Origin: Myxococcales bacterium
GTDB lineage: Bacteria > Myxococcota > UBA727 > VGSZ01
DNA length: 40,022 bases
Direction of reading: 5' to 3'
Assembly (NCBI GenBank): GCA_023248635.1
Contig: JAHFED010000014.1
Location: forward strand, 72,419-112,440
Position 1 is the first letter of the stretch. Each line of letters starts with the position of its first letter. Made by a program: the position numbers and the translations under genes. Shown piece by piece: positions 3,177-21,028 of this stretch. The notes beneath the pieces are model-generated. The model was given only the letters and a program-made list of their open reading frames with translations. It made no database searches and was not told the origin of the DNA.

Positions 3177-5501
3177 TCAGCGCACCAGAAAGCGGGCCTC
3201 GTCGACGACGTTGCCCTGGTCGTCATAGGCGAGGGCATGGTGGGATCCAGGGCGCAGGGCCAGCCAACCACCGGTGCCGGCGTCGCGGCCGTCGACGACG
3301 ACGCGGGAGACGCCCTGCGTGCGCAGCGGGATCTCCTGGCCTGAGGGGATGCCCGGATCGAGGGCGTAGACGTCGCCGTCTTTGGGACTGAGCAGTCCCC
3401 GCGCAGCATGGGGTGCAGCGGAGCGTTGGCAGCGTCCTTCGCGCAGGGCCCAGACGCCGAGGGATCCAGCCAAGGACACCGGGCGTTCGCCACCGGCGCA
3501 GGGGCTGGCGTCGTCGGCGCGCTCTCCCTCGCGGTGCACCCCGCACAGAGCTGTGGGGGCCGTGCCGGGCAGAAAGACTTCGTCGACACCGGAGCAAGAG
3601 GCTGTGGCCAGCTGTCCAGAGAGGGGACAAATGCGGGCGTGCTCGAAGCCGTGGGCCTGCTCGACGATGTCGTCGCGCAGGGGAGCGGGATCGATCCCGG
3701 CCATGGCGGCCTCCATCGCTCGCCGAAAGACGACGCCAGCGCCAGAAATGCCGGAGACGCCGCGCATGGGTGTGCCGTCGAAAGATCCCGCCCAGACCGC
3801 CACCGTGCGCTCGGCCGTAAAGCCCGCGGTCCAGTTGTCGACGTAGGAGCGGCTGGTCCCGGTTTTTGCGGCCACGGGAAAGGCGAGATCGAGAGCGTTG
3901 TCGAGACCAAAGGCCGGAGCCCGGGCGGCGCCGTCGCTGAGAATGTGGGTGAGCAAGGCGGTGACGTCGTCGGGGAGGAAGCGCTGCTCGCCGTCGCTTG
4001 GAGCCACGGGGACAGAGTTGCGTTTTTCGTCGAGAGCCGCGTGCACGACGACCAAAGGCCGGTACACGCCGCCACGCGCGAGCCCGCTGTAGGCGGCGGC
4101 CATCTCGAGCAAGGTCACTTCGCCGTTGCCCAGCACCAGACCAGCGCCGTAGTGAGCCGCGGACTCTCTCAAGGAGTGAAAGCCCGCCGAGCGCAACACC
4201 CCGAGGACAGCGTCGGGTCCGAGCGCTTGCGCCACCCGCAACGCGGGCACGTTGTAGCTGTTCTGCAGCGCAGCCCGCAGCGTGACCGGACCATGCATGC
4301 GCCGATCGTAATTCTGCGGCGCGAAGGTGCCGCCGTCGTCGAGGGCAAAGGCCAGGTCGATGTCGTCGAGGACGGTGGCGGCGGTGAAGGCAACCGAGCC
4401 GCTGCTTCGTTGGGTGAGCGCCAGCCCGTAGACGAAGGGCTTGAGCGCGCTGCCCGGCTGTCTCTGGCTGGTGACGCCGTCGTTTTTTCCCAGGCTTGCA
4501 TCGTCGAAGAAATCCGCCGATCCGACCCAGGCCAGCACTTCGCCGGTGGCGTTGTCCACGACGACGACGGCGGCGTGGGCCAGCCCGTGCCCTTTGTGCG
4601 GTCCCTGCTTCACCTCGTCAAAGACGATGCCCTCGATCTCCTGCTGCAAATGCACATCGATGGTGGTCCGCACCTCCACGGCACCTGGTGGAGGAGAGTT
4701 TCGCACCCGGGTGGCCAGGTGGGGAGCGGTGAGGTCGCCGTCGTTGTGCAGACCCGCGCCAAGGGGCTCCGCCAGAGCGCGGGCGAAGACGTCGTCGTCG
4801 ACGAAGCCGCTGGCTTGCATTCGCTGCAGGACCTCATCGCGTCGGGCCCGCGCGGCCGCGGGAAAGCGCAGGGGATCTTCGCGTTCGGGTGCATGGGCCA
4901 TCCCTGCCAAGAGTGCCGCCTGCGACGTCGACAAGAGCGCCGCCCGGGTACCAAAAAACAAGAGGCTCGCGGCGTCGACGCCAACGGTGTTGCGACCCAG
5001 CGGGACCCGATCGAGGTAGGCGGCGAGGATGCGGGCTTTCTCGATGTGGGCATCGAGGCGCAGCGCCCACAGGGCCTCTTCGATCTTGCCGAGCAGGCCA
5101 GGTCCGCGCTTGCCCAGGCGTCGGGCGAGCTGTTGGGTGATGGTCGAGGCCCCGCTGACCACCCGGCCCGCCACGAGGGAGTCGCGCACCGCCCGCAGGA
5201 TGCCTTTGACGTCGACACCGTGGTGAACGGCAAAGCGTCGATCTTCGACGGCGACGAAGGCGGCGGCGACCCGCGGCGGCGCCACGCCCTCGCGCAAGGG
5301 AAGGCTGCGCGCGCCCTCGGCATTGAGGCCAACGGCCAGCACCGTGCCGTCGCGGGCCAGCACCAACACCGAGCTGCCGCCCGCAAAGAGTGCGTCTTCA
5401 TCCAGTGGCCAGGCAATGAAAGCGACGACGGCGACGACGACGACGATGAAGGCCGCTCCGCTTGCTTGCAGCGCGCGCCACCAGCAGCGTCGGCCGAGCA
5501 T
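3177..5501 (-). CDS. pbpC: Penicillin-binding protein 1C (bifunctional peptidoglycan synthase)
   Basis: A 774-residue class A PBP of the PbpC type. One N-terminal membrane helix (about 16-33) anchors it in the inner membrane. The glycosyltransferase domain shows EDRRF (catalytic Glu about 86) and GASTITQQLAR (about 117-127). The transpeptidase domain shows SALK (active Ser about 351), SYN (about 415-417) and KTGT (about 546-549). A C-terminal PBP1C-specific beta domain (BiPBP_C) covers about 690-774. The ATG overlaps the stop of the upstream alpha-2-macroglobulin gene by one base (TGATG); a GTG one codon earlier would give a four-base overlap. This coupling matches the known pairing of PBP1C with A2M, in which A2M is thought to shield the periplasm once peptidoglycan has been breached. 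All catalytic motifs are intact. Confidence 0.95.
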   Translation of the reverse strand: MLGRRCWWRALQASGAAFIVVVVAVVAFIAWPLDEDALFAGGSSVLVLARDGTVLAVGLNAEGARSLPLREGVAPPRVAAAFVAVEDRRFAVHHGVDVKGILRAVRDSLVAGRVVSGASTITQQLARRLGKRGPGLLGKIEEALWALRLDAHIEKARILAAYLDRVPLGRNTVGVDAASLLFFGTRAALLSTSQAALLAGMAHAPEREDPLRFPAAARARRDEVLQRMQASGFVDDDVFARALAEPLGAGLHNDGDLTAPHLATRVRNSPPPGAVEVRTTIDVHLQQEIEGIVFDEVKQGPHKGHGLAHAAVVVVDNATGEVLAWVGSADFFDDASLGKNDGVTSQRQPGSALKPFVYGLALTQRSSGSVAFTAATVLDDIDLAFALDDGGTFAPQNYDRRMHGPVTLRAALQNSYNVPALRVAQALGPDAVLGVLRSAGFHSLRESAAHYGAGLVLGNGEVTLLEMAAAYSGLARGGVYRPLVVVHAALDEKRNSVPVAPSDGEQRFLPDDVTALLTHILSDGAARAPAFGLDNALDLAFPVAAKTGTSRSYVDNWTAGFTAERTVAVWAGSFDGTPMRGVSGISGAGVVFRRAMEAAMAGIDPAPLRDDIVEQAHGFEHARICPLSGQLATASCSGVDEVFLPGTAPTALCGVHREGERADDASPCAGGERPVSLAGSLGVWALREGRCQRSAAPHAARGLLSPKDGDVYALDPGIPSGQEIPLRTQGVSRVVVDGRDAGTGGWLALRPGSHHALAYDDQGNVVDEARFLVR

Positions 5502-8500
5502 CACCGCAGGACCTTGAGCTCGCCGGCATCGGAACGGCCAAAGACCTCGGGCGCGTACATCTCCGAAGCCTCGGCCGGCAGCAGCACGAAGGTTCCCATC
5601 GTTGTCGCGCGGGTCACGAAGGTCAGAGTGTGCACACCAGGGGGCAGGTCGTCGGCGTAGAAAGAGACGCGGTCGTCGCGCTTTTCGCTGTGGCCAAACG
5701 GCGACCAGAACCAGGGGCCGTCGTCGTCGTCCTCGCCTTCTGTTTCATCGTCGCGCGCTCCGCCAGCATGGGCAGTGGAGGCCAGCGAGGTATCGACGGC
5801 CTCCAGGCCCGCGGGCAGAGGAACGTCGACGGCGACGAAGCGTCGCGCATCCTTGCTGGCCACCCGCACCCGCACCCGTACGAGGTCGCCGGCGTAGAAG
5901 CTGCGTCCTTGCTTCTTGTCGTCGCCGAGGGGCTGAAACCAGCGCTGCACCACGAAACCGCGATCCAGAGCATTGGTGGGCAGAGCGGTGGGGGCCCGCC
6001 GCAGCAGGGCCGAATAGTAGAGCGTGCCCGCGCCCTTTTTGCTGAAGACGAAGGGCAGGGAAGCGGTGCCCTTGGCCAGGACCTCGGCCATCGGCAGCAG
6101 GGTGGTGACGACGTCGAGGTTGCGGCCGCGGAAGTCCTCACTGACCAGCGCTGCGGCACCGAGGGACACAGTTGCGTCGAAGTCGGGGGCGTTGCGCTCC
6201 TTGGTTCGGGTGACTTCGGTGAGGGCCATCAGGACAAAGGCGGCCTCTTGGGTGTTGCGGTACTGGCCGCTCTGCAAGCGCGCGGTCTGCAAGAAGGCCG
6301 TCAGCTTGGGGATGAAGGGATGCTCGGGCACGGCGTCGGTGAGGGTCATCAGCACGATGGCGCTCGTGCGCACGTCGCTCGACCAATAGGCCTGGTACTT
6401 CGCCCCTTCGGCCTCTTCGAAATGCACTTCGCGCGGGGTCTCGCGGGCCGCATTCAAGACGGTCTGCAGCACCCTCTGCGCCGTGTCCGGGTTGCCTTTG
6501 CCGGTGACCAAGGCATCGGCCAACAGGGCGCGCACGAAGAAGGCATGGCTCTCGGGGTGCTGCAAGACGTCGTCGACGACGGCGCCGAGGGCGGCGGTCT
6601 TGGGCTTGCCCGCTCGGGCCAAGACGAAGGCGGCGAACACGCGTTCGGGGTTTGTCGCATGGCGCGTTCCCCAGGTGCACGAGGGCAATTTGTCGGCGAG
6701 CACGCGATCGGACAGAAAGTTCAAGGCGGCGTCGACGACGGCCTGTTTGACTGGGAATCCGAGATCCTTCGCGCGGGTGAGGGACAGAGTTGCGTAACTG
6801 CTGGCCCAGGGATCGACGCAGCTCGATTCTGGCCAGAAGTGGAAGCCGCCGCTGCTGGCATCTTGCAGAGCCGTGATCTGGGCCAAGGTGGCTTCGATGA
6901 CTTGGTCGGGGTGTGGCGTTCCATTCTTGTCGAGGATCGAAGTGCCCAACCACTGCGTGGCTTGTTTGATCTCGGCCTCCGAGCCCGGCTTGTGGGAGAG
7001 GCCGAAGCCGCCCTGCAGCTCGCGCAACGCCAGGAAGGGAACGAGCTTCGACGAGAGTTGTTCGAGGCAGCCGTGGGGATAGTCCACCAACTGCTTCATG
7101 GCTTCGCCGTAGCCCGAGAGCACCGTCGAACCCAAGCGGACCTCGAGGCCGCCGACGTCGGAGCGGGCATCGCCGGGGGGTGCCAGGGCTTCGGCGCGGC
7201 TGTCGTCGGTCATGCCGCTCACCGCCGTGGTCTCGACGACGACAGGCAAGAGCACCGGGATGGAGATCTTGACGCCGTCGCTCTCGGTGCCGCGCTTGGC
7301 CTGAAAGGAAAAGGTCGCCGTACCTGGCTGCTCGGCGCGAAAGGCGAAGCGGGTTTCGACGCCACTGTGTTGATGGGGAGGGGCAGCGAGCTGCACGGTG
7401 GTCTGGCGGTCGCCGGCGAGCAGCACACCCGTGGCGTCGGCGGTGACGACGACGGGGCCGGCCTCGCTGCTGTGCACGACGACTCCGGCCTCAAAGACAT
7501 CGCCGACCCGCACCAGCCGCGGCAGCGAGGGCAAGAGCATCACCGGCTTCTGCACCACGATCTCACCCTTGCCCTGGCCGAAGGAAGAGTGGGCGACGGC
7601 GACGGCCATCAAACGGTAGGTGGTGAGATCATCGGGCAGGGTGACGTTGACGCTGACCTCGCCTTGGTCGTCGGTGACGATGTCGGGCAAGAAAAAGGCC
7701 GTGGTCTTGAAGTTCGATCGAAAGCCCGAGCCGCTGTCGCCGCCGCCGCCGCCGGGTTCGCCCTTGCCGCCATAGGCCTGCTTTTTCACGAGGTAAATGA
7801 GCGGTTCGCCGAAGCGTACCGACAGACCGCGCTCGGGGTGGAAGCGTGCCAGCAGGTCGGGCGGCGCGTACTCGGTCAGGCGCAGCACGGCTTCGTCGAC
7901 GGCCCAGAGGGTGACCTCGGCGGGTACCCCCTTTTTCCGGAAATCCCTCACCGCGATCTTCAGCGAGAGCTTCTGCCCGGGTCTCTTGGTGCCGGCGCCG
8001 GCGTCGATGACGACGTCGAGGCGCTTGGAGCTCACATCGACCTTGAGGTTCACCAGCCCGATCTTCACCTGGGGTCGGCCGGGATCAACCTCGCCTTTGC
8101 TGAACTGAGGGGCTGCTTCGGCGTCGCCGATCCGACCGCGCACCAACACCGCGCTGACAAAGACATTGGGGATGGCGTCGTCGTCGATGGGCACATCGAC
8201 GGCGGTGGCTGCGCCCTTCAAAGAGAAGCGTCGCACGGTGCGCACGCCTTCGCGCTCGGTGGTGACGATGGCTTCGGCTGCGGGCCAGGGTGATTTGATC
8301 AGCACGTGGGCGGTGTCGCCGGGCGCGTACACTTTCTTGTCGGCCACCAGCTCGAGGCTGTCGTCGTCACCCCGCTGCCACGACACCCAGCCGTCGCCAG
8401 CGACGTAAAACGACGACGTCGTCTTTTGCTTGCGGCCCTGCTCGTCGGTGGCCGTCGCCTCGACGATGTGCAGGCCGGGCTTTTCCGCCGTGAAGATGCA

Positions 8501-11365
8501 GCGCTCGGGATCGGGTCCGCTCCTGATCGCCTGGCAGGTGTGCACTTCGACGTCCGAGGGCTCGCTCAGCGTGACGAAGCGCCCAAGGTCTTCGTCTTTC
8601 TTGCGCACGTTTTTCCAGTCGCGGCGCTTGATGACGACATCGACGGGGGTGGCGCTCACCCGATGGCCCACGGTGTCGACGGCGATGATCTCGACAACGG
8701 TCTCTTTGCCCACCGCGCCGAAGCCGCCAGGAATGCGCACGCCGGCATAGACCGAGGCAGGGTGCACCGTGACCGAGGTGCGGTTGGCCACCGCCTGGCG
8801 TGAGACGTCGGTGACCTCGGCTTCGACTGTGTAACGCCAGGTGCGACCAGCGGTGGCCTCGACGGCGCCGACGTCGACGTTGAAGCTGCCGTCGTCGACA
8901 ATGACCCCTTTGCTGCGCGCGTAGACGTCGCCGGAGGGTTGGGGATCGGCGTCATCCCAGCCCCAGGTGTTCACACCGAAGCTGAAGGAGTCGTCGCCCT
9001 CGGCGTAGAAGGACGTGGTCTCTCTGGTGATCGTGGCGTCGACGGTGGCGCCGGGCATGGGCGCGCCGAAGAGGTAGCGCGCGTTGACGGTGGCGCCGAG
9101 CTTGTCGCCAGAGACCAAGCCGCCGGCAAGGTTCTGCGGGCCCTCGACGTCGACCTTGAATTGGGGCGCGCGGTACTGCTCCACGCGAAAGGAGGCGCCA
9201 CCGCCGACGTCCTGACCCAGCAGCTTGCCGCTGACCGCCACGCTCCACCAACCAAGGCCGGCATCCTTGGGCAGGGTCACCGTCGTCGAGAAGGTGCCGA
9301 AGCGCGAGAGAGGCACGCGCTCCTCTTTGAGGGTGGTGCCGCTGTCGTCTTTGATCTTGAGCTTGAGCTCGCTGTCGGGTTTGGGAACCGCCAGCTCACC
9401 GCGCGCCCGCGATCGCACCACACCCTTCACCTGCACGGCGTCGCCAGGGCGGTAGATGCCGCGTTCGGTGAAGACGACGACCGTGACGTCGGCGATGTTG
9501 CCCTCCCAGGCTCGGCGTACGTCGCTGCCGGCCTCGCTCTCCCAGGTCGACAGCGTCACGCCGGTGTCTGTGCCCAGGGTGGCGCTCACCAGGGCGAAGG
9601 GCACGTGCCAGGGGCTGTCGGAGTCGCCGTCTTTGCCGAGCACGTCGACCATGCCGGGCAAGCGGGCCACGCCGTCGACGTCGCTCTTGGCTTCGGCTTT
9701 GACCGCACCCTGGGCGTCGTACACGCGTACGACGGCGTCGGCGACGGGCTGGCCTTTGGACAAGGACGTCACCCACACCACGCTGCTCAGCGCGCCGAGC
9801 TTGGCGTGGGCTGCGAGATCGGTGATCTGGCCCACGACCCGGTGATGCTCCCAGCGGGCCGCCTTGGTCGGGTCGTCGACGTTCACAGCGAACAACTGGG
9901 GACCATCTTTGGGCAAGAGAGGGCGCAGGGGCAGCGGCGTGCGCTGGGGGATGTTTTTGCGCATGGGGATCTCGAGCACGCTCTTGACCGCTCCCGCCGG
10001 CAGCGGCGCCGTCTCGCGGCCGTCGGCGAGCAGGCGGGCCATCTCGGCCACGCTGAGGGGCGTGATGCTGGTCTGCAGGCGCTTGAGGTTCGAGGTCTCG
10101 ATGGGCAAAGCGCCGTCGCCACTGGCTTCCAACAACACAAAGGAATCCGGGACCATCAGCTCGGCCTCGAGGTCGCTGGTGGTGGCGCTGTCGGCGAACG
10201 CGGCGGCCGCCCGCCCTTTGACGTCGGTGACGCCGGCGTCGACCACGAGGTCGTAGGCGGTGCCAGCCCGCAGGCGCGCGCCCAAGTAGACGACGTACCA
10301 GCCGCTGTTCACATCGGGATGCTGGGTGCTGTCGTCGACGTCGAATTCGACCTCTTTGGCTGCACCTTTCTTTCGAATGTGCACACGCCCTTTGAGGCTC
10401 TGCAGGTCCAGCTCGTTGGTCGTGGTGAGCACCAGCGGCCCCCCGGGGCAGAAGTCGGCGCCCTGGGCGCTGCACAGCGTCAGGCGCAGGAGCTCCAGAG
10501 GACCGCCGGTGCGCCAGGTCAGCAGCGTCAGTGGCTCGAGGTCTTGGGGGCCTTCGGTGCTGGCCACCCCATCCAGCGCCAGCTGCACGGCGGCCGCCCC
10601 CGGAAGGCCGCTGGCATGCAGCTCGTAGCGCGTCGGACGTCCCCAGGGCGTGCGGCCCGCGGGATGTCGCCCGGCCTTCTTGGCCTGCTCCTCGTCGACG
10701 TCGACCACTTTGGTGATCTGAAAGGGCACGGGCTTGCCAAAGGCGCTGAGCACCGCTTTGTCGAGGTTCTTCACGGGCTGGTTGAAGGTCAGCAAGATGG
10801 GCTCGGTGGGATCGAGCCAGGGCCACCCGCGCTGGGGGCTGACGTTGCTCAGCGCCGGGGGAAGGGTCCTGAAGGTGAACGAGACGGGGGCAGCCAAGCC
10901 TTCGCCGTCGAGCGCCTTGAGCGCGGGGTTGATGCTCACGACGAAGGTGGTCGCGTAGGCAAAGGGAACTTTCGGCAAGAACTCCACCGCCGCCGAGCCC
11001 TGCCAGCGCCAGACGCCCTCGACGGCGGGCGAGATGGTGGCGGGCACCGGCATGTCTTCGTCGACGGCACCCAAGGGCACCACGGGCTTGTTGAAGGTGA
11101 GCGCGGGTCGCTCCTCGCCGCGCAACTGACCCTGCGGTCGGGCGACGACGACGGCCAGGGGGCCACCGGGGATACCGGGCAAGGTGCCGGCAGCGATGGC
11201 GATGGCTGGAGCCTGCGGCAGCGGCGAGAGCTCGAGGGCCGCGCGCTCGTCATCAGGGATGATGCGACCATCGGGCCCCTTCGTCGTCGACGACGGGCCA
11301 CAGGAGTCACATCCGGCGGCGGCGACCAGGGCGAGGAGGGCGAGCAGGGGGCGACGGGGGAACAT
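5501..11365 (-). CDS. Bacterial alpha-2-macroglobulin family lipoprotein (thioester type)
   Basis: A 1,954-residue periplasmic protease-trap protein. The N-terminus is a lipoprotein signal ending in LVAAAGC with lipidated Cys19. Residue +2 is Asp, the inner-membrane retention signal in E. coli, as fits an A2M protein held in the periplasm. Many macroglobulin beta-domains follow, then the thioester motif GCLEQ with Cys1433, so this is the covalent-trap form, and finally a helical toroid and receptor-binding-like end. The start is placed at ATG 11365 because the signal peptide begins there; the longer open frame upstream has no such feature. The 5' end overlaps the SpoU methyltransferase gene by 59 bp and the 3' end overlaps pbpC by one base, so translation is probably coupled along all three genes. 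Confidence 0.94.
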   Translation of the reverse strand: MFPRRPLLALLALVAAAGCDSCGPSSTTKGPDGRIIPDDERAALELSPLPQAPAIAIAAGTLPGIPGGPLAVVVARPQGQLRGEERPALTFNKPVVPLGAVDEDMPVPATISPAVEGVWRWQGSAAVEFLPKVPFAYATTFVVSINPALKALDGEGLAAPVSFTFRTLPPALSNVSPQRGWPWLDPTEPILLTFNQPVKNLDKAVLSAFGKPVPFQITKVVDVDEEQAKKAGRHPAGRTPWGRPTRYELHASGLPGAAAVQLALDGVASTEGPQDLEPLTLLTWRTGGPLELLRLTLCSAQGADFCPGGPLVLTTTNELDLQSLKGRVHIRKKGAAKEVEFDVDDSTQHPDVNSGWYVVYLGARLRAGTAYDLVVDAGVTDVKGRAAAAFADSATTSDLEAELMVPDSFVLLEASGDGALPIETSNLKRLQTSITPLSVAEMARLLADGRETAPLPAGAVKSVLEIPMRKNIPQRTPLPLRPLLPKDGPQLFAVNVDDPTKAARWEHHRVVGQITDLAAHAKLGALSSVVWVTSLSKGQPVADAVVRVYDAQGAVKAEAKSDVDGVARLPGMVDVLGKDGDSDSPWHVPFALVSATLGTDTGVTLSTWESEAGSDVRRAWEGNIADVTVVVFTERGIYRPGDAVQVKGVVRSRARGELAVPKPDSELKLKIKDDSGTTLKEERVPLSRFGTFSTTVTLPKDAGLGWWSVAVSGKLLGQDVGGGASFRVEQYRAPQFKVDVEGPQNLAGGLVSGDKLGATVNARYLFGAPMPGATVDATITRETTSFYAEGDDSFSFGVNTWGWDDADPQPSGDVYARSKGVIVDDGSFNVDVGAVEATAGRTWRYTVEAEVTDVSRQAVANRTSVTVHPASVYAGVRIPGGFGAVGKETVVEIIAVDTVGHRVSATPVDVVIKRRDWKNVRKKDEDLGRFVTLSEPSDVEVHTCQAIRSGPDPERCIFTAEKPGLHIVEATATDEQGRKQKTTSSFYVAGDGWVSWQRGDDDSLELVADKKVYAPGDTAHVLIKSPWPAAEAIVTTEREGVRTVRRFSLKGAATAVDVPIDDDAIPNVFVSAVLVRGRIGDAEAAPQFSKGEVDPGRPQVKIGLVNLKVDVSSKRLDVVIDAGAGTKRPGQKLSLKIAVRDFRKKGVPAEVTLWAVDEAVLRLTEYAPPDLLARFHPERGLSVRFGEPLIYLVKKQAYGGKGEPGGGGGDSGSGFRSNFKTTAFFLPDIVTDDQGEVSVNVTLPDDLTTYRLMAVAVAHSSFGQGKGEIVVQKPVMLLPSLPRLVRVGDVFEAGVVVHSSEAGPVVVTADATGVLLAGDRQTTVQLAAPPHQHSGVETRFAFRAEQPGTATFSFQAKRGTESDGVKISIPVLLPVVVETTAVSGMTDDSRAEALAPPGDARSDVGGLEVRLGSTVLSGYGEAMKQLVDYPHGCLEQLSSKLVPFLALRELQGGFGLSHKPGSEAEIKQATQWLGTSILDKNGTPHPDQVIEATLAQITALQDASSGGFHFWPESSCVDPWASSYATLSLTRAKDLGFPVKQAVVDAALNFLSDRVLADKLPSCTWGTRHATNPERVFAAFVLARAGKPKTAALGAVVDDVLQHPESHAFFVRALLADALVTGKGNPDTAQRVLQTVLNAARETPREVHFEEAEGAKYQAYWSSDVRTSAIVLMTLTDAVPEHPFIPKLTAFLQTARLQSGQYRNTQEAAFVLMALTEVTRTKERNAPDFDATVSLGAAALVSEDFRGRNLDVVTTLLPMAEVLAKGTASLPFVFSKKGAGTLYYSALLRRAPTALPTNALDRGFVVQRWFQPLGDDKKQGRSFYAGDLVRVRVRVASKDARRFVAVDVPLPAGLEAVDTSLASTAHAGGARDDETEGEDDDDGPWFWSPFGHSEKRDDRVSFYADDLPPGVHTLTFVTRATTMGTFVLLPAEASEMYAPEVFGRSDAGELKVLR

Positions 11366-12248
11366 GGGCACCTCGAAGCGCAGGTGAAGCAGCAGGGGAT
11401 GTTGGGGCGATGTGCTGGGCGGCAGCGCTGCGCCACAACTCCCACAAGAGGATCGACGACGCGCAGGCCACGTTGAGGCTTTCGAGGGCCCCCGATCCAG
11501 GAATGGCGACGACGTCATCGGCGAGATCGAGCAAGCCCTTGGACAAGCCAGCACCTTCAGAGCCGAACATCACCACGCTGCGAGCAGGCAGGGCGCTTCG
11601 CCCCAGAGAGACCGTGGCATGGCTCGAGGTGGCGAGCAGACGAAAGCCCTGGGTGCGCAGCTGCAACAAGAGCGCGCGGGTGCCAGCGACGTCGCCGGCG
11701 TGGACGAGAGTGGTGTGCTCCGCTCCCCCCTCCGCCGTCCGCAACACGGCAGGCGAGAGCGCGGGGGTGAGCCCAGCGCGCAAGCAGAAGGGCACGCCGA
11801 AGTGGGCACACACGCGCAAGATGGCGCCGAGGTTGTGCGGGTTCTTGACGTCTTCGAGCAGCACCAGCGCGCAGGGCTCAGCCGGTGCGAGGCGCCGAGA
11901 AAAAGCGCTGACGTCGTCGAGGACGCCTTCGCGACGCTCGAGGGCCAGAAACAACACGCCGTCGTGGTGCACCGTCTCTGCGACCTGGTCGAGGTCGAGG
12001 TCGGTCTTGACGTGATAGGCGAGCTTCTTGTCGGCGCAGTAGCCGAGCACGTCTTTGAAGCGCGGCAGGGTGTGCTCGGTGACGTAGACGCGGCGGATGT
12101 CTTGCGGTCGGCGCAGAAAGAGGGCGCGACAGGCGTTCTCGCCCGCGACTTTGTGCTCCGGGGCGCTGCTCGAGCCCGGACGACGCGGGCGCGGTGCTGG
12201 GGCCGGGCCGCGCGCGGGAAGGGCTTCAGAACGAGGACGATCGCGCAT
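11307..12248 (-). CDS. SpoU/TrmH-family RNA 2'-O-ribose methyltransferase
   Basis: A 313-residue SPOUT-class methyltransferase using S-adenosylmethionine. An N-terminal substrate-binding region (about 30-115) precedes the knotted catalytic domain. Motif 1 is LLEDVKNPHNLGAILR, motif 2 is VMFGSEGAGLS, and motif 3 is IPGSGALESLNVACA. These are the standard SpoU motifs, including the conserved Asn and Arg of motif 1 and Glu of motif 2. The target (rRNA or tRNA position) cannot be told; RlmB-like and TrmH-like proteins share this layout. The first 35 residues are Arg/Pro-rich and may mean a later start, as there is no clear RBS. The gene lies 56 bp after the DNA ligase gene and overlaps the A2M start by 59 bp. 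Confidence 0.9.
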   Translation of the reverse strand: MRDRPRSEALPARGPAPAPRPRRPGSSSAPEHKVAGENACRALFLRRPQDIRRVYVTEHTLPRFKDVLGYCADKKLAYHVKTDLDLDQVAETVHHDGVLFLALERREGVLDDVSAFSRRLAPAEPCALVLLEDVKNPHNLGAILRVCAHFGVPFCLRAGLTPALSPAVLRTAEGGAEHTTLVHAGDVAGTRALLLQLRTQGFRLLATSSHATVSLGRSALPARSVVMFGSEGAGLSKGLLDLADDVVAIPGSGALESLNVACASSILLWELWRSAAAQHIAPTSPAASPALRGAHVPPSPPARPPRPGRRRRM

Positions 12249-12304: not shown

Positions 12305-14335
12305 TCAGCCGAAGCGCTCGCGCACCGAGAGCTCCTCGATCATCTTGGTGGTGTCGGCTTCGAAGGCGCTCTTGTCGGTGCGCAGCTGGGCGATCTTTGG
12401 ATCGCGCAAGCTCAGCCTCTTGGTCTGTTGATCGCGGGTGATGCCCTCGAACTTGACGGTGACGACGACGTGGGGCCGCAATTCGAGCCCCGGCCGCACC
12501 CCCGAAGCGCTCGGCCTCTCGATGCGCCGACCCGTGATGAGGCCCTCACGCACGATCTCGCCCTGCAGCGCACGGTCGCGTTCGACGTCGACGCCGGCGA
12601 CGTCGCCCACGTCTTCGAAGCTGCCGTCTTCGCGCCGGGCGCCGATCACATAGCTGCCGAACATGCCGGCTCGCTCTTTGGTGGTGACCGCCAAGACGCC
12701 ACCCAACAAGACAAGATCAAGGGTGATCAGTGGCTTTCTCTTTACCCACCCAGGATCGCGGGTCGCGATCTTATACAGCCCATCAGGGTCTTTGCCGATG
12801 ATGCCTTCGTAGCCCTGGCCGCGGAAATACTGGAAGAGCCGGTTCACGTCTTCGCGACTGTGCGCCATCTGGCCATCGACGATGCCCAGCGGTACCGGCA
12901 AGGGCATACCCGCCAGCGGCGCGAGCAGAGCCTGCAGCATTTGCCGCCGCTGCATCAAGGGAAATGGAGTGAGATCTCGGCCGTTCAAGTAGATGATGTC
13001 GAAGGCGCCGAACTTCAGGTTCACGGCCTTTTGGGGTTGACCGGTCAGGTGGGCATAAACGTCGTAGACGGTGGCCGGCTGGGGTCCGTCTTCGGAAAAC
13101 ACCGTCCCGTGCAATTCGCCGTCGAGGATGACGTCTTTGCAGGGGAGCATCTTGGCGCTCTGCTCGAGGCCCGTGACCAGCTCAAGCCAATCGCCGCGGG
13201 TGCGGGTGTAGGCGCCGACCAAGGTGGCACCGCTTCTGTCGGAGGATTTGTGCAGCATCAGGCGAATGCCATCGAGCTTGCGCTCGACCCACACGGGATA
13301 CTTCGCGATCTCGTCGACACCGCCAGAAGCGAGGGCGGGCCGCACCGGTACCAGGGGCTGCAGTTGGATCTTTCTCAGACCCGCGGGGCCCTCGGTCTCT
13401 AGGATGTGGGCGACCTTGAAGTAATCGGTGAGGGCCACGGCGTGGTTCACCTCCTCGGCGCTCAAAGTCCCGACTGCGGGTCCGGCTTTGTGCCGCTCGC
13501 TGTGGGCCTCGGCCAGCGCGCGGGCGAGCAACGGGCCCTGGTAGTCGAAGCCGAAGCCGGCCTTGCGCAGCAGCAGCTTGGCGAGGAAATAGGCCTCGAG
13601 CTTGCCCATCCGAGACAACAATGAACGCAGGATCGAGAACTTCTTTTGCCGCGGCGCATCGGGGAAATAGCGCAGGGCCTCGAGTACCTCCGACGCCGTC
13701 AACGGGGGATCGATGCGACCTTCGGGGCGGGCCTCGGCAAAGAGCACCGCGACGTCGCCGACGATGGTTAATCGATCGATCAGGGTACGTCTTTGTTGGA
13801 GGGTTATCGACAACAAGAGCGCGATCATGCTGTCGCGCTTGAAGGTGCTCTTCCGACCGCGGAAGGCGTCGCCGAGGATGCAGGCGAGCTTCTGCACCAG
13901 CGACAGACCGACGTTCTTGCCCAGGAACTCCCCAAGCAATGCTTCGCGGGCGGCCGTGTCGGGGGGCGGGTCAGCGACGATGCCGAACAACGACGCCACC
14001 CGATCGGGATGCAGCATTGACAGCGGCAAGAACAAGCCCTTGCACAGCGAGTAGAAGGGGATGGACGCAAAGGAGTCGGCGACGCCTCCGTCTCCGCTGA
14101 CCTGCTCGCCAGCGTCCATGCGTGACTCGATGGCGAAGCGGAGGTGCAAGGGCAGCCCGAGAGTCTCTTCGACGAAGGAGTCTCCCAGGCGCGTGGCCCC
14201 AATCGATCCGAACAAATCCGTGAACGGCACGCCGTCGTCGCGCATGCGCAGCAGCTGCGTCACCGACATGAAGCGCGGCTTTTTCGGCTCGCGCGTAAAC
14301 GCCGCCGCGGTGGCAGCCACGTTCTTCTTTTCCAT
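12305..14335 (-). CDS. ATP-dependent DNA ligase
   Basis: A 676-residue ligase with three parts. An all-helical N-terminal DNA-binding domain covers about 25-330. The nucleotidyltransferase core carries motif I ERKLDGIR (adenylated Lys about 353), followed by YTRTRGDW, ILDGELHG (motif III Glu about 407), FDIIYLNG, EGIIGK and WVKRKP. A C-terminal OB domain follows. Size and layout resemble archaeal/eukaryotic LigI-type enzymes rather than the short bacterial LigC/LigB forms. Bacteria use NAD-dependent LigA for replication, so this is probably a repair or specialised ligase. The ATG overlaps the stop of the RadA-like ATPase gene (TGATG), implying tight co-expression; a GTG one codon earlier is the alternative start. 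No nuclease, polymerase or Ku domain is fused. Confidence 0.94.
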   Translation of the reverse strand: MEKKNVAATAAAFTREPKKPRFMSVTQLLRMRDDGVPFTDLFGSIGATRLGDSFVEETLGLPLHLRFAIESRMDAGEQVSGDGGVADSFASIPFYSLCKGLFLPLSMLHPDRVASLFGIVADPPPDTAAREALLGEFLGKNVGLSLVQKLACILGDAFRGRKSTFKRDSMIALLLSITLQQRRTLIDRLTIVGDVAVLFAEARPEGRIDPPLTASEVLEALRYFPDAPRQKKFSILRSLLSRMGKLEAYFLAKLLLRKAGFGFDYQGPLLARALAEAHSERHKAGPAVGTLSAEEVNHAVALTDYFKVAHILETEGPAGLRKIQLQPLVPVRPALASGGVDEIAKYPVWVERKLDGIRLMLHKSSDRSGATLVGAYTRTRGDWLELVTGLEQSAKMLPCKDVILDGELHGTVFSEDGPQPATVYDVYAHLTGQPQKAVNLKFGAFDIIYLNGRDLTPFPLMQRRQMLQALLAPLAGMPLPVPLGIVDGQMAHSREDVNRLFQYFRGQGYEGIIGKDPDGLYKIATRDPGWVKRKPLITLDLVLLGGVLAVTTKERAGMFGSYVIGARREDGSFEDVGDVAGVDVERDRALQGEIVREGLITGRRIERPSASGVRPGLELRPHVVVTVKFEGITRDQQTKRLSLRDPKIAQLRTDKSAFEADTTKMIEELSVRERFG

Positions 14336-15528
14336 CACTTCACCGAAGGAATTGCATACTCTTTTGGTTGCAGAGCATGCACGGTCAGCTCACCAGTGGT
14401 TGTGGCGCGATCAACGCGAACAGGGTGCTGCAACGTCGGCGTTGTCACGCTCTTCACCACATTCAAGATCGAGATCTTGTCGCGGTACTTGCCGCCCCAG
14501 AACTCAGCGACCTCCTTGGAGCCAAGGCCCATCTCTTCGAGCAAGAAGACGACGTCGGCGGTGTGTTGCAGAGCTTCGCCGCCGACAGGTTCGCCGGTGT
14601 CCTTGATCTGGCCGATGCAAATGCAGGTGATGCCCTTTTCGTGGTTGTAGGTCTTCAACGCCGAGAGGTTGTCGGCGGTACCCTTTTTGGTGGGATCGAC
14701 CATGTTGAGCGAATCGATGACGACGAACTCGATCTCCTCTTTTTCTACAAGGTATCGATATTTGGCGACGAAATCATCCCAGGTGTTGTGTTTATGGTAT
14801 TGTGCTTCGAGGACAAAGAGGTTCTCGAGCACCTTCTTTTCGAAGTTGGCTTCATCGAGGCCAGTGGCGGCCATGCCGACCTTGCACAAGCGCGAGCACA
14901 GATCGTCGCGCCCGTGATCGTCTTCGTTGTGGAAGCCCTCTTCGGCGACGACGAAGGCCACCTTCTTGCCGGTGGCTGCCACGCGGGCCAAGGAGGCCAA
15001 GGCCGTACGGGTCTTGCCCTTGCCGGGGGGGCCGACGAAGACGGCGGTGCAGCCGCGGGGAACGCCGCCCAGGGCATGTTTGCCGTCGTCGCTGAGGCAG
15101 AGGAGGTCGAGGACGTTGCCCAGGGGCAGGGCCTCTTGGGTCTTGATCCTCTTCTCGAAGCGGGAGGGGCGCACGATGGCGGCTTCGAGGCCGGGATCGG
15201 TGTCGACTTTGGCTTGGCCGCCAAAAGGCATGGCTGCGGGATCGGTGGGGCCATAGCCGCCCATGCCCTGCATGCCCTGCATCATCTGCATCATCATCAT
15301 CATGGGGTTCATCTGCTGCATCATGGGATTGATCCCCATCTGCGGGTTCATCCCCATGGGCATGCCCTGACCCGGCATCATTCCCTGCATGCCAGGTTGC
15401 ATCCCAGGCATCTGACCCATCGGCATCTGACCCATCATGGGATTCATCCCCATGGGCATGCCCGGCATCATCGCCGGGGCAGCGGCGGCTGCGACGACGT
15501 CGACGTCGGCCTTTTTCTTGGTGGCCAT
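14335..15528 (-). CDS. RecA/RadA-like ATPase with methionine-rich N-terminal tail
   Basis: A 397-residue protein. Residues 20-89 are a low-complexity Met/Gly/Pro/Gln tail with 30 methionines in 70 residues. The rest is a RecA-fold ATPase: Walker A GPPGKGKT (166-173), a following EE pair (196-197), Walker B strand FVVID (268-272), and an IGQIKDTGEPVGGEAL segment resembling the part of RadA before its KNRFG motif. KNRFG itself, the RadA zinc finger and the Lon-like domain are all missing. The function is therefore inferred only as a DNA- or protein-remodelling ATPase of the RadA/KaiC type. Its RBS (GGAGGG) lies inside the last codons of the small upstream gene, and its stop overlaps the ligase start, so the three genes form one translation-coupled unit. 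Confidence 0.82.
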   Translation of the reverse strand: MATKKKADVDVVAAAAAPAMMPGMPMGMNPMMGQMPMGQMPGMQPGMQGMMPGQGMPMGMNPQMGINPMMQQMNPMMMMMQMMQGMQGMGGYGPTDPAAMPFGGQAKVDTDPGLEAAIVRPSRFEKRIKTQEALPLGNVLDLLCLSDDGKHALGGVPRGCTAVFVGPPGKGKTRTALASLARVAATGKKVAFVVAEEGFHNEDDHGRDDLCSRLCKVGMAATGLDEANFEKKVLENLFVLEAQYHKHNTWDDFVAKYRYLVEKEEIEFVVIDSLNMVDPTKKGTADNLSALKTYNHEKGITCICIGQIKDTGEPVGGEALQHTADVVFLLEEMGLGSKEVAEFWGGKYRDKISILNVVKSVTTPTLQHPVRVDRATTTGELTVHALQPKEYAIPSVK

Positions 15529-15530
15529 GT

Positions 15531-15773
15531 TCAGCCCTCCTTCTTCTTCAGCTTGCTTTCATTGTCCTTGATGAAGGTGCGAATCTGCTCTCCCATCTCG
15601 AGCAACTTGAGCCACTGCTCCATATAGAGCGTGACCGGAAACCGGCCCATTCCATAGACGGAAACGGCGCCCTTCTCGGAAACCTTCAGGGATATGCCTT
15701 TGACCGGGGCTTTCTTCAGCGCCTCGTTCTCGGCCTTCAAACGCTCGATCTCGGCCTTCAGGTCTTCGCTCAT
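15531..15773 (-). CDS. Small coiled-coil protein, first gene of the ATPase-ligase operon
   Basis: An 80-residue acidic/basic protein of unknown function. Residues 1-22 (MSEDLKAEIERLKAENEALK) form a clear heptad coiled coil. The remainder contains a compact motif SLKVSEKGAVSVYGMGRFP, then an aromatic stretch ending in a Lys-rich tail. The shape suggests a dimeric adaptor. The open frame extends 41 codons upstream, but ATG 15773 is preferred because GGAGA precedes it and the added residues look like untranslated leader. It ends two bases before the RadA-like gene and carries that gene's RBS, so it likely works with the ATPase and ligase. The family is not one I can name. Confidence 0.75.
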   Translation of the reverse strand: MSEDLKAEIERLKAENEALKKAPVKGISLKVSEKGAVSVYGMGRFPVTLYMEQWLKLLEMGEQIRTFIKDNESKLKKKEG

Positions 15774-16790: not shown

Positions 16791-18803
16791 TCAGCTCTGC
16801 CGGCGGCGTGCCATCACCAGGGTCAGCAAGCCCAGCAGGGCCGCAGACGAGACCGGCACACCGTGCGACGTCGAACGATCGCTCGAGCACTGGAGGTTGA
16901 TGTCTCCGGTGTTCACGTCGTTGTTGCTGCCGTTGCCGTTGCCGTTGCCGCCGTCCTCGCCTTCGCCCTCTTCGCCTTCGCCCTCTTCGCCTTCGCCCTC
17001 TTCGCCTTCGCCTTCCTCGCCTTCGCCTTCTTCGCCTTCGCCTTCTTCGCCTTGGCAATCGTTGACGTCGGTGCCCGGGGCGCAGAGATCCGGCTCATCG
17101 CATTCACCGTCGTCGAGGAAGCCGCACTCCTCGCTGAAATCCAACACACAGACGCTGTTGTCGGAAGCATCGGGGACGGCACCACCCACGCCACAGTGCG
17201 CGACCTCGCAGACGGCGGCTTCTGTCGACGCACAATCCACGTCGGTGAGGCCGCAGCCGCAGTCGCAGTCCCCGTCGCCGAAGGTGGCGGGGTTGCAGTG
17301 GTAGCCCGTGAGGTCCGTGCCGTCCTCGGCCTGGGCGGCAGCGCAGAAGGCGTTGTTGTCAGCGCTCACGACCGTGCCTTCGGGGCAAGCGCTCGCATCG
17401 CAGGAGCGGCTGCTCTCGTCGGAGCAGTCCGGGTCGTGTTGGAAGCAGCCGCAGTCGCAGCCATTGCCTGCGTTCAAGCCGTCGCACACCGAGGTGCCGG
17501 TGCCGTCGTCGACGCCGACAAAGAGGCACTCGGAGTGCTCATCGCCGCGGCACTCCCAGCCAGCTTCTTTGCTGCAGAACGCGGCGCAGCCGTCGCCGTC
17601 GTCGTTGTTGCCGTCGTCGCATTCTTCGCCGGCGGTGGTGCCGCTGGCGTCGCTGTCGATGATGCCGTCACCGCAACGAGGGGCTTCGCCGGCGAGGCGT
17701 TCGATCGTGCACACGTCGCTGCAGCCGTCGTCGTTGTCGCGGTTGCCGTCATCGCATTGCTCGGCAAAGAAGCTCTCGGTTTCGCCGTTGCCGCAGGGGT
17801 CTTGCGTCGGGTCGAGGAAGGCCGTGCAATCGGCCGTGCAACGCGTGCCGTCGCCGCCGTCGTCGCAACGTTCCGAGCCGCCGAACCAGTCGGTGAAATG
17901 ATCGCCGCAGCCGCCGGTGGCGGTGTTGACCGCCACGCAGTGGGAGTTGTCGTTGGCGTCGGGGACTGTGCCCTCGGCGCAGTGGTTGCGATTGGCGTCG
18001 CAGGAGGCCGCGCTGGCGCCGGCGACGAATTCGCCGCTCTCGTTAAAGTGGTCAACACAGTTGCCATCGACGCTGCCGCAGCCGCAGTCGCAGGCGTCGG
18101 GGCCCCGGAACTCTCCGGTGTAGGGGTCGGTGATGGAGGTGCTGTGCTGGGTTTGGTCGCAGGCGAAGTCAGAGCCAGCCGGCGCCTCCCAGGTGTCGTT
18201 GAGAACGTCGGGGGGAGCCTCGAGCTTGCAGCGGCTGCTGCAGCCGTCGCCGTCGTCGCGGTTTCCGTCAGCACACTCGTCGAAATCAGGATGGTCGCCG
18301 CAGACGCCCTCAGGGGGAGGCGCGGCCTCACAAAGGGCGTTGTTTTCGAGATTGATGACGCCCGCACACGTCAACTGGAAGTCGCAGACGGATGCCGAGT
18401 GAGGACTTTCGATCGCAACGGGGGGTTGGTCATCGGGGGGGTTGAAGGGGACAATGCAATCGGGATCGAAGGCGCCGCAGCCGCAGTCGCAGTCATTGGA
18501 GCGGCCGACGAAGTAGAAGCCGACAGGACAGGTCCATTCAGCGGGAGGGGTGGCGGAGACGCACTCGCCCGCGGAGGTGTTGATGAGACCGTTGCCGCCG
18601 CTGCCGTCGCTGCCGCCGTTGAACTCGAAGGTGGCGCCCGCACAGACCTCGCCGGCAGCGTCCCTGCCTTGGCGGTCCCGGCACACGACGATGGAGTTGT
18701 CGTTGCCGCTCACGACCGTGCACGGCTCGCCGATGGTGGCGGCCGCCGGCAGTGCAAAGGTGAAGAGACCGACAGACAGAGCGCCAAGAAATCTCATTGA
18801 CAT
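16791..18803 (-). CDS. Secreted cysteine-rich surface protein, copy 1 (DUF4215 repeats, MYXO-CTERM-like tail)
   Basis: A 670-residue secreted protein. The Sec signal peptide covers about 1-22 (cleavage near PAAA-T). The mature part is rich in Cys, Asp and Gly. It alternates Myxococcus cysteine-rich repeats (DUF4215; e.g. CDDGNRDNDDGCSDVC and CDDGNNDDGDGCAAFC) with four copies of a CDCGC module whose core is CDCGC[GF]xxDx[DN]C. A Gly/Glu linker (about 584-617) leads to a short segment with a single Cys, a hydrophobic helix and an MARRR end, as in MYXO-CTERM sorting tails cut by myxosortase. This suggests a cell-surface or released Ca-binding or adhesive protein; that role is inference. An RBS (GGGGAGA) stands 7 bases before the ATG. 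Residues from about 180 onward are the same as in copy 2 downstream; only the N-terminal quarter differs. Confidence 0.9.
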   Translation of the reverse strand: MSMRFLGALSVGLFTFALPAAATIGEPCTVVSGNDNSIVVCRDRQGRDAAGEVCAGATFEFNGGSDGSGGNGLINTSAGECVSATPPAEWTCPVGFYFVGRSNDCDCGCGAFDPDCIVPFNPPDDQPPVAIESPHSASVCDFQLTCAGVINLENNALCEAAPPPEGVCGDHPDFDECADGNRDDGDGCSSRCKLEAPPDVLNDTWEAPAGSDFACDQTQHSTSITDPYTGEFRGPDACDCGCGSVDGNCVDHFNESGEFVAGASAASCDANRNHCAEGTVPDANDNSHCVAVNTATGGCGDHFTDWFGGSERCDDGGDGTRCTADCTAFLDPTQDPCGNGETESFFAEQCDDGNRDNDDGCSDVCTIERLAGEAPRCGDGIIDSDASGTTAGEECDDGNNDDGDGCAAFCSKEAGWECRGDEHSECLFVGVDDGTGTSVCDGLNAGNGCDCGCFQHDPDCSDESSRSCDASACPEGTVVSADNNAFCAAAQAEDGTDLTGYHCNPATFGDGDCDCGCGLTDVDCASTEAAVCEVAHCGVGGAVPDASDNSVCVLDFSEECGFLDDGECDEPDLCAPGTDVNDCQGEEGEGEEGEGEEGEGEEGEGEEGEGEEGEGEDGGNGNGNGSNNDVNTGDINLQCSSDRSTSHGVPVSSAALLGLLTLVMARRRQS
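16801..18266 (-). repeat. 1,466-bp direct repeat, copy A (within first cysteine-rich gene)
   Basis: This tract appears identical to 19065-20530 at a constant offset of 2,264 bp; translations in several frames agree throughout. The similarity drops abruptly at both ends, inside the coding sequence on the 5' side and a few codons before the stop on the 3' side. Such sharp limits inside otherwise diverged paralogs suggest gene conversion or a recent recombination event. Confidence 0.93.
16955..17052 (-). repeat. Microsatellite-like tract encoding a Gly/Glu linker (copy 1)
   Basis: Repeats of tcgcct/tcgccc/ctt triplet mixtures on the plus strand, read on the minus strand as GEEGE units in the secreted protein. 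The linker precedes the C-terminal sorting region. Its repetitive DNA could change length by slippage without loss of frame. Confidence 0.85.
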
Positions 18804-19057: not shown

Positions 19058-21028
19058 TCAGCGACGGCGGCGTGCCATCACCAGGGTCAGCAAGCCCAGC
19101 AGGGCCGCAGACGAGACCGGCACACCGTGCGACGTCGAACGATCGCTCGAGCACTGGAGGTTGATGTCTCCGGTGTTCACGTCGTTGTTGCTGCCGTTGC
19201 CGTTGCCGTTGCCGCCGTCCTCGCCTTCGCCCTCTTCGCCTTCGCCCTCTTCGCCTTCGCCCTCTTCGCCTTCGCCTTCCTCGCCTTCGCCTTCTTCGCC
19301 TTCGCCTTCTTCGCCTTGGCAATCGTTGACGTCGGTGCCCGGGGCGCAGAGATCCGGCTCATCGCATTCACCGTCGTCGAGGAAGCCGCACTCCTCGCTG
19401 AAATCCAACACACAGACGCTGTTGTCGGAAGCATCGGGGACGGCACCACCCACGCCACAGTGCGCGACCTCGCAGACGGCGGCTTCTGTCGACGCACAAT
19501 CCACGTCGGTGAGGCCGCAGCCGCAGTCGCAGTCCCCGTCGCCGAAGGTGGCGGGGTTGCAGTGGTAGCCCGTGAGGTCCGTGCCGTCCTCGGCCTGGGC
19601 GGCAGCGCAGAAGGCGTTGTTGTCAGCGCTCACGACCGTGCCTTCGGGGCAAGCGCTCGCATCGCAGGAGCGGCTGCTCTCGTCGGAGCAGTCCGGGTCG
19701 TGTTGGAAGCAGCCGCAGTCGCAGCCATTGCCTGCGTTCAAGCCGTCGCACACCGAGGTGCCGGTGCCGTCGTCGACGCCGACAAAGAGGCACTCGGAGT
19801 GCTCATCGCCGCGGCACTCCCAGCCAGCTTCTTTGCTGCAGAACGCGGCGCAGCCGTCGCCGTCGTCGTTGTTGCCGTCGTCGCATTCTTCGCCGGCGGT
19901 GGTGCCGCTGGCGTCGCTGTCGATGATGCCGTCACCGCAACGAGGGGCTTCGCCGGCGAGGCGTTCGATCGTGCACACGTCGCTGCAGCCGTCGTCGTTG
20001 TCGCGGTTGCCGTCATCGCATTGCTCGGCAAAGAAGCTCTCGGTTTCGCCGTTGCCGCAGGGGTCTTGCGTCGGGTCGAGGAAGGCCGTGCAATCGGCCG
20101 TGCAACGCGTGCCGTCGCCGCCGTCGTCGCAACGTTCCGAGCCGCCGAACCAGTCGGTGAAATGATCGCCGCAGCCGCCGGTGGCGGTGTTGACCGCCAC
20201 GCAGTGGGAGTTGTCGTTGGCGTCGGGGACTGTGCCCTCGGCGCAGTGGTTGCGATTGGCGTCGCAGGAGGCCGCGCTGGCGCCGGCGACGAATTCGCCG
20301 CTCTCGTTAAAGTGGTCAACACAGTTGCCATCGACGCTGCCGCAGCCGCAGTCGCAGGCGTCGGGGCCCCGGAACTCTCCGGTGTAGGGGTCGGTGATGG
20401 AGGTGCTGTGCTGGGTTTGGTCGCAGGCGAAGTCAGAGCCAGCCGGCGCCTCCCAGGTGTCGTTGAGAACGTCGGGGGGAGCCTCGAGCTTGCAGCGGCT
20501 GCTGCAGCCGTCGCCGTCGTCGCGGTTTCCATCGCCACATTCATCGACGTCGGGGTGGTCGCCGCAGACGCCCTCAGGCGCAGGGGGGGCCTCGCAGACA
20601 GCATTGTTGTCGGTCGCTGGCACCCTGCCGTCGGTGCAGGCGCCGGTGAAGCCGCAGGCACGGCTGGAGCTCGCGGTAAACTGGCCCTCGGGATCGTCCC
20701 GACAGTCCAGATCGACGGCGCCGCAGCCGCAGTCGCAGCCGTCGGCGTCGCCCCCACCGTAGAAGTTGGGATTGCACGGGCCGGTCTGATTCGAGAGATC
20801 CCAGCTGTCTGGGAGGCAACGTCCGGTGCTGCCTTCGAAGCCATTGAAGTCGCCTCCGACGCACACTTCGCCGGCCGCCGTGGCGCCGGTGCTGTCCGTG
20901 CAGGCCTGGCGCAGCCCCTTTCCGTCGACGCTCCCAACAATGGTGCAATGTTCGCCCAATGTGGCCGAGGCTGGCAGTGCCAGACCGAAGGCTGCGATTG
21001 CGATGGCCCCAAGAAATCTCATTGACAT
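19058..21028 (-). CDS. Secreted cysteine-rich surface protein, copy 2 (DUF4215 repeats, MYXO-CTERM-like tail)
   Basis: A 656-residue paralog of the downstream gene at 16791-18803. The signal peptide covers about 1-22 (PASA-T). The N-terminal region has its own sequence but the same plan: CTIV, VCVGG, a CDCGC module (CDCGCGAVDLDC), and an ATDNNAVC end. From about residue 167 to the last few codons it is the same as copy 1, including DUF4215 repeats, three further CDCGC modules, the Gly/Glu linker, one Cys before the final hydrophobic helix and MARRRR. The two genes have similar leaders and RBSs and separate terminators, so they are tandem transcription units rather than one operon. The variable N-terminus on a constant C-terminus may change what the surface protein binds; that is inference. 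Confidence 0.9.
   Translation of the reverse strand: MSMRFLGAIAIAAFGLALPASATLGEHCTIVGSVDGKGLRQACTDSTGATAAGEVCVGGDFNGFEGSTGRCLPDSWDLSNQTGPCNPNFYGGGDADGCDCGCGAVDLDCRDDPEGQFTASSSRACGFTGACTDGRVPATDNNAVCEAPPAPEGVCGDHPDVDECGDGNRDDGDGCSSRCKLEAPPDVLNDTWEAPAGSDFACDQTQHSTSITDPYTGEFRGPDACDCGCGSVDGNCVDHFNESGEFVAGASAASCDANRNHCAEGTVPDANDNSHCVAVNTATGGCGDHFTDWFGGSERCDDGGDGTRCTADCTAFLDPTQDPCGNGETESFFAEQCDDGNRDNDDGCSDVCTIERLAGEAPRCGDGIIDSDASGTTAGEECDDGNNDDGDGCAAFCSKEAGWECRGDEHSECLFVGVDDGTGTSVCDGLNAGNGCDCGCFQHDPDCSDESSRSCDASACPEGTVVSADNNAFCAAAQAEDGTDLTGYHCNPATFGDGDCDCGCGLTDVDCASTEAAVCEVAHCGVGGAVPDASDNSVCVLDFSEECGFLDDGECDEPDLCAPGTDVNDCQGEEGEGEEGEGEEGEGEEGEGEEGEGEEGEGEDGGNGNGNGSNNDVNTGDINLQCSSDRSTSHGVPVSSAALLGLLTLVMARRRR
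19065..20530 (-). repeat. 1,466-bp direct repeat, copy B (within second cysteine-rich gene)
   Basis: Counterpart of 16801-18266. The boundary at 20530 falls after gtttcc, beyond which the two genes still align but with many differences. The boundary at 19065 falls three codons before the stop. Confidence 0.93.
19219..19316 (-). repeat. Microsatellite-like tract encoding a Gly/Glu linker (copy 2)
   Basis: Same length and sequence as the tract at 16955-17052, lying inside the shared 1,466-bp block. That such a slippage-prone tract is the same length in both copies argues that the block was homogenised recently. Confidence 0.85.

Follow-up and report, generated by a model that had tools for sequence, protein, structure and literature searches.

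A RecA-fold ATPase and an ATP-dependent DNA ligase, encoded side by side on contig JAHFED010000014.1 of a Myxococcales bacterium (assembly GCA_023248635.1), are strict genomic partners, independently of whether their genes are linked. The stretch of DNA analysed here, hereafter the window, is 40,022 nucleotides (nt) long, and the two genes lie in it with a small open reading frame (ORF) at positions 12305–15773. A functional pairing of the ATPase and the ligase is very likely, and on balance we consider it probable that the two constitute a dedicated module for the joining of DNA strands, the small ORF being a neighbour.

The locus is organized as follows:
15773..15531, minus strand: small ORF (P0001), 80 residues, coiled-coil/beta-alpha, carrying the signature of family A5.
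15528..14335, minus strand: RecA/KaiC-fold ATPase (P0002), 397 residues, leading gene of the pair; PF06745, orthologue family A3.
12305..14335, minus strand: ATP-dependent DNA ligase (P0003), 676 residues, second gene of the pair; PF04675/PF01068/PF04679, orthologue family A4.
14333..14338, minus strand: overlap of the ATPase stop and the ligase start, junction GTGATG, TGA and ATG having one base in common (TGATG).

The ATG of the ATPase is found 2 base pairs (bp) past the stop of the small ORF, and the ligase, which ends at 12305, starts either at the ATG at 14335 or at an alternative, overlapping GTG at 14338. These coordinates confirm the layout given in an earlier note on this DNA (an 80-residue ORF, a RecA-fold ATPase and a full-size ligase, the first two separated by 2 bp and the last two overlapping in TGATG). 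Judging from homologues at appreciable identity in other genomes, all three ORFs are real genes, with identities of 60–74% for the small ORF (in 12 of 58 relatives) and, in other lineages, of 62–79% for the ATPase and 47–58% for the ligase.

Co-occurrence of the ATPase and the ligase

The distribution of both proteins was surveyed in 541 genomes from three phyla (58 relatives of the window's genome, 294 Planctomycetota and 189 Myxococcota). The ATPase was detected in 19 genomes and the ligase in 19, with 18 encoding both, one the ATPase only (G323) and one the ligase only (G364, in which the ligase starts within 160 bases of the contig start). Each group taken separately gives the same picture. 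Among the 58 relatives, the ATPase is present in three genomes (G000, which is the window's own, G001 and G005), which are also the three with an orthologous ligase, ligase matches falling from 773 to 70 bits past the orthologues; when all 195 genomes of the window's own phylum were considered, the ATPase was again retrieved from these three. In the Planctomycetota, 13 genomes carry the ATPase and 13 the ligase, 12 of which are shared (uncorrected Fisher p=2.4e-19), and in the Myxococcota both proteins are encoded by the identical 3 genomes.

A scan for the ATPase across one genome per species (84,980 species), in which low-complexity, Met-rich seed peptides led to an under-reporting of relatives, added at least five further genomes: Gemmataceae, Planctomycetaceae, Vicinamibacteria and two Enhygromyxa salina. 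The ligase does not adjoin the ATPase in four of the five genomes added in this way. In all six genomes chosen through their ATPase alone, the orthologous ligase was recovered with an E-value below 1e-200, four of these being unlinked.

Across the 21 genomes with both proteins, the genes are adjacent in 11, always on one strand and with the ATPase first, and unlinked in the remaining 10. Gaps between adjacent genes range from -4 bp to about +35 bp depending on the start chosen, and are mostly of 10 bp or less, the ATPase and ligase genes of G005 overlapping by 4 bp. Trees of the two proteins, with 22 sequences in each, agree on their main groups, and their distances are correlated. In both trees, three Planctomycetota (G195, G197 and G244) group with the window's phylum and the Myxococcota, apart from the other Planctomycetota, and this shared odd placement is consistent with a joint transfer of the two genes.

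An all-against-all blastp comparison of 31 ATPase or ligase loci yielded no consistent third neighbour, and recovered only protein kinases and genes confined to single clades. Among the unlinked copies of the ATPase gene, two in Enhygromyxa adjoin the gene of PolX, a repair polymerase, and two in Planctomycetota that of a dTMP kinase, a context which lends modest backing to a role on DNA. In both Enhygromyxa strains (L078, 7552–9699; L079, 2327–4492), the ATPase gene is divergent from that of the PolX repair DNA polymerase/exonuclease. In one myxococcal adjacent pair (G552; locus L152, contig C52), the ATPase is interrupted by an in-frame TAG and the N-terminal third of the ligase is in another frame, damage which is due to decay or to an assembly error.

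The small ORF as a probable passenger

The earlier note had gathered all three genes into one module and made the small protein a bridge between ATPase and ligase. The part concerning ATPase and ligase stood, given their co-distribution, the recovery of the ligase in six of six genomes and the adjacency of 11 pairs of 21, whereas the small protein dropped out on its distribution. Measured against the note's own ground for refutation, namely that homologues of the three genes would rarely be adjacent elsewhere or that the small ORF would not be conserved, a module of three genes falls and one of two genes stands.

In favour of a three-gene unit are the 2-bp spacing seen here, the sister species, in which an ORF of the small family likewise lies upstream of the pair, and the finding that the three genomes with the pair among the relatives surveyed (58) all encode a member of the small family at some locus (Fisher p=0.007). 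However, the small gene stands beside the pair in one genus only, that of the window's genome and its sister species; in G005 it is on a different contig from the pair, and nine further relatives possess it without the pair. It was detected in 2 of the 294 Planctomycetota, neither of them pair-bearing, and in none of the 13 ATPase-bearing Planctomycetota. Other members of the family lie at unrelated loci, on a plasmid of Acidisarcina (Acidobacteria), in phage records and on 24 IMG/VR contigs. A three-gene module with the 80-residue protein as a bridge is thus very improbable, and the small ORF is judged to be a lineage-specific neighbour or passenger, although it is here probably part of the same transcript as the ATPase and the ligase. 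Co-occurrence, and not operon adjacency alone, is what tells the true partner (the ATPase) from the passenger.

The passenger exposes an unnamed family of small proteins that occurs in bacteria from several phyla, on a plasmid and in phages (loci L015–L026 and L046–L072). Its signature is KVSEKGAVSVYGLGRFPVTLYxEQW, preceded by a variable N-terminal helix; the signature was not found in the open-licence papers searched. Comparison with Pfam, NCBIfam, PHROG and PDB returned no convincing family. The structural model is compact and of high confidence (predicted local distance difference test, pLDDT, of 91.4), with an N-terminal helix that leads into three strands and two helices, and a fold search with it gave no significant match. 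A look-alike stretch suggested a single-strand binder of the PC4/Sub1 type, which is no more than a lead: Pfam and PDB profiles returned nothing, and Foldseek listed several chains of a Sub1 structure at E-values of about 4.6–6.4. One genome (G053) carries two copies of the family 3 kb apart and a third, partial copy.

Identity of the ATPase

Orthologues of the ATPase were found in the window's own phylum, the Planctomycetota, the Myxococcota and the Acidobacteriota. Four features of the protein are relevant to its identity:
15010..15033, minus strand: Walker A motif GPPGKGKT, invariant in family A3.
14710..14727, minus strand: Walker B motif FVVIDS, with D272 and S273 invariant in A3 and also present in Escherichia coli RadA.
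15229..15528, minus strand: N-terminal tail of about 100 residues rich in Met, Pro, Gly and Gln, pLDDT mostly 30–58.
15268..15309, minus strand: conserved Met-rich helix NPMMxMMQMMQ followed by D-x-A-A-x-PF, conserved across phyla in A3 and in Planctomycetota.

The best Pfam match is the KaiC family PF06745 (E=2.9e-10; 40.4 bits for a gathering cut-off of 26.6), an assignment that holds at superfamily level only; other models of the RecA superfamily match more weakly. The ATPase had been called RadA-like in the earlier note, a description that suits its core and fails as a statement of membership. A RadA-like core is indeed supported by profile comparison with E. coli RadA (hhalign probability of 96.5 across the core), in which the RecA-fold core and both Walker motifs align and the ATPase segment GQIKDTGEPVGGEALQHTAD is placed opposite RadA GHVTKDGSLAGPKVLEHCID. 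In the ATPase family this segment takes the form GQIKDTGxPVGGEALQHTAD, and the two proteins have in common G(H/Q)-x-x-x-x-G-x-x-x-G-x-x-x-L-x-H-x-x-D.

By contrast, the elements that define bacterial RadA/Sms are lacking. The N-terminal tail of the ATPase family is without cysteines, and hence without the Cys4 zinc finger (C11, C14, C25 and C28 in E. coli RadA); KNRFG occurs nowhere in the protein, which displays VKSVTTP (KSVTT) at a comparable C-terminal place; and the sequence ends soon after the core, without a Lon-like C-terminal domain. The score against the RadA/Sms model TIGR00416 is 18.6 bits for a cut-off of 403, and RadB/Sms-type models are likewise far below their cut-offs. The ATPase is therefore not a RadA orthologue. 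G000, G001, G005 and others possess a separate gene for a true RadA, and of the eight genomes outside the Planctomycetota that bear the pair, seven have a full RadA above the curated cut-off and the eighth has a partial one, so that the ATPase is not simply RadA.

RadA is described as acting on recombination intermediates and as conserved throughout bacteria (PMC11612176). None of the 13 pair-bearing Planctomycetota (G195–G482) encodes a convincing RadA, no RadA/Sms match exceeding about 41 bits. As a lead from these pair-bearing members, the ATPase might fill part of the role of RadA in this phylum. In the window's own genome, two RadA/Sms genes, both full-length, lie on the same strand with about 2 kb between them (G000 contig C112, 30746–32116 and 34322–35668).

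The tail rich in Met, Pro, Gly and Gln distinguishes the ATPase from RadA and was retrieved in almost all measurable orthologues. From its low pLDDT, it is probably disordered, with the conserved Met-rich stretch predicted as a helix (residues 75–87 of the model) that would be a candidate docking motif.

Identity of the ligase

The ligase matches PF04675 (DNA-binding), PF01068 (nucleotidyltransferase) and PF04679 (OB) above their cut-offs, which is the domain layout of LigB-type ligases. Motifs I to V of the nucleotidyltransferase and motif VI of the OB domain are in place (KLDG, FDIIYL, EGIIGK, KRKP, RTDK), among them the adenylated lysine:
13268..13279, minus strand: motif I, K-L-D-G, with KxDG in 22 of 22 family members.

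Its best relatives of solved structure are archaeal-type DNA ligases (E=1.9e-24). With the archaeal and eukaryotic DNA ligase I family the protein shares these best structural matches, the three-domain layout and a conserved R-x-DK...EADT end; it differs in being bacterial, in its extra N-terminal residues and in having a RecA-fold ATPase as partner.

In bacteria, ATP ligases are accessory enzymes, and what each of them does is explained by its partners, such as Ku in the case of LigD and a helicase/nuclease cluster in that of LigB. The earlier note, which has such ligases usually going with Ku or LigD, takes too narrow a view, since full-size LigB-type enzymes are the most widespread bacterial kind and are typically encoded in an operon with an Lhr helicase, a phosphodiesterase and an MBL-fold nuclease (PMC10140301). 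The present ligase has the same DNA_ligase_A_N, A_M and A_C domains as those of the LigB cluster and is likewise tied to an ATPase that would remodel nucleic acids. However, this ATPase is of the RecA fold and not an Lhr helicase, no nuclease cluster adjoins, and none of the three operon genes was found among the neighbours of the ligase in the window; LigB-type and cisplatin-response models match far below cut-off. With non-homologous end joining by Ku and LigD, the pair shares the principle of a bacterial ATP ligase with a dedicated partner that acts, or here would act, on DNA. The ligase is nevertheless without the extra polymerase and phosphoesterase domains of LigD, and Ku was detected in 5 of 21 pair-bearing genomes (on another contig in the window's genome), so that an assignment of the pair to this pathway was rejected.

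Proposed mechanism and alternative explanations

RecA-fold ATPases work as rings or filaments on DNA or on proteins, and three-domain ATP ligases seal nicks. The pair is likely to act on DNA rather than on RNA or protein, with a role probably in repair or recombination. We tentatively propose a mechanism of remodelling followed by sealing, which we hold to be somewhat less probable than its failure. The ATPase would form a ring or a short filament on DNA that is branched, gapped or nicked, spend ATP on remodelling the junction or on keeping hold of it, and pass the resulting nick to its partner ligase, which would close it through ATP-dependent adenylation. A complex of the two proteins, or a stimulation of one by the other, would be expected of such a module, the Met-rich helix of the disordered tail being the likeliest docking site for ligase or DNA. 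The most far-reaching reading, and a rather doubtful one, is that of an undescribed two-protein machine in which a RecA-fold ATPase with a docking tail rich in Met brings its own ligase onto branched or gapped DNA or sets it in position there. Such a machine would have spread through Planctomycetota, Myxococcota and relatives, and in the first of these its hosts are genomes that yielded no canonical RadA.

Several points weigh against a dedicated strand-joining module. One draft genome (G323) has the ATPase without the ligase; the Fisher values are uncorrected for phylogeny or shared ancestry, and the correlation between the two trees (r=0.82; Mantel p=0.0002) is owed in part to common ancestry. 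The PolX and dTMP kinase adjacencies concern two genomes each. No promoter-like site was found, and co-transcription therefore rests on spacing. Lastly, the structural model of the ATPase is poor (pLDDT of 55.7) and resembles RAD51 paralogues, DnaB, KaiC and RadA in fold to about the same degree; roles as a helicase, a clamp or a clock-like protein are therefore not told apart.

One alternative would make the ATPase a signalling or scaffold protein of the KaiC/GvpD kind, the pair then being regulatory and not directly engaged in DNA joining. The PF06745 match, the structural matches to KaiC and the annotation of weak plasmid relatives as GvpD or ATPase-domain proteins all agree with it. Yet a DNA ligase that has its catalytic motifs is the one partner to stay constant, no kinase or response regulator recurs consistently, and the core aligns with RadA too, which leaves a regulatory pair unlikely. 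We regard as equally unlikely a repair ligase system for stress or stationary phase, comparable to LigB or LigD, with which the ATPase would merely be co-regulated. Such a system would fit the LigB-type domain make-up as defined in the literature (PMC10140301), but the strict co-occurrence of unlinked genes implies more than co-regulation, and the low scores of the LigB-type equivalog models, the scarcity of Ku and the neighbourhood of the ligase described above speak against it as well.

The patchy occurrence across phyla, and trees whose positions mix phyla, could also suggest an anti-phage or mobile-element module spread by transfer. This is the least probable of the explanations considered: PADLOC returned weak, generic ATP-binding-fold matches only, plasmids yielded generic KaiC-like matches and no copies of the ATPase family or of the ligase, and the neighbours in the window resemble housekeeping and surface genes. 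No relatives of the ATPase were retrieved from 50,697 phage records or from IMG/VR, on which ground a phage origin of the ATPase was also rejected. A dedicated strand-joining module of ATPase and ligase thus remains the explanation that we favour. Its parts are of known kinds and the pairing appears to be new, as no description of this pair, or of a RecA-fold ligase partner, was found in the open-licence literature searched. If true, a ligase tied strictly to a single RecA-fold partner would add a further class to the bacterial ATP ligases.

Other features of the window

The three genes are flanked by those of an alpha-2-macroglobulin-like (A2M-family) protein, a SpoU-type methyltransferase and a divergent Lgt. 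Penicillin-binding protein 1C and alpha-2-macroglobulin families are a familiar gene pairing, and at 3177–11554 (minus strand) a penicillin-binding protein 1C-type gene lies directly downstream of the bacterial alpha-2-macroglobulin-like gene. Two tandem cysteine-rich proteins of about 660 residues (myxo_disulf_rpt) are encoded at 16791–18803 and 19058–21028 (minus strand). Their initial 160 residues or so differ and the other 500 or so are nearly identical, a pattern that points to a recent duplication or to gene conversion.

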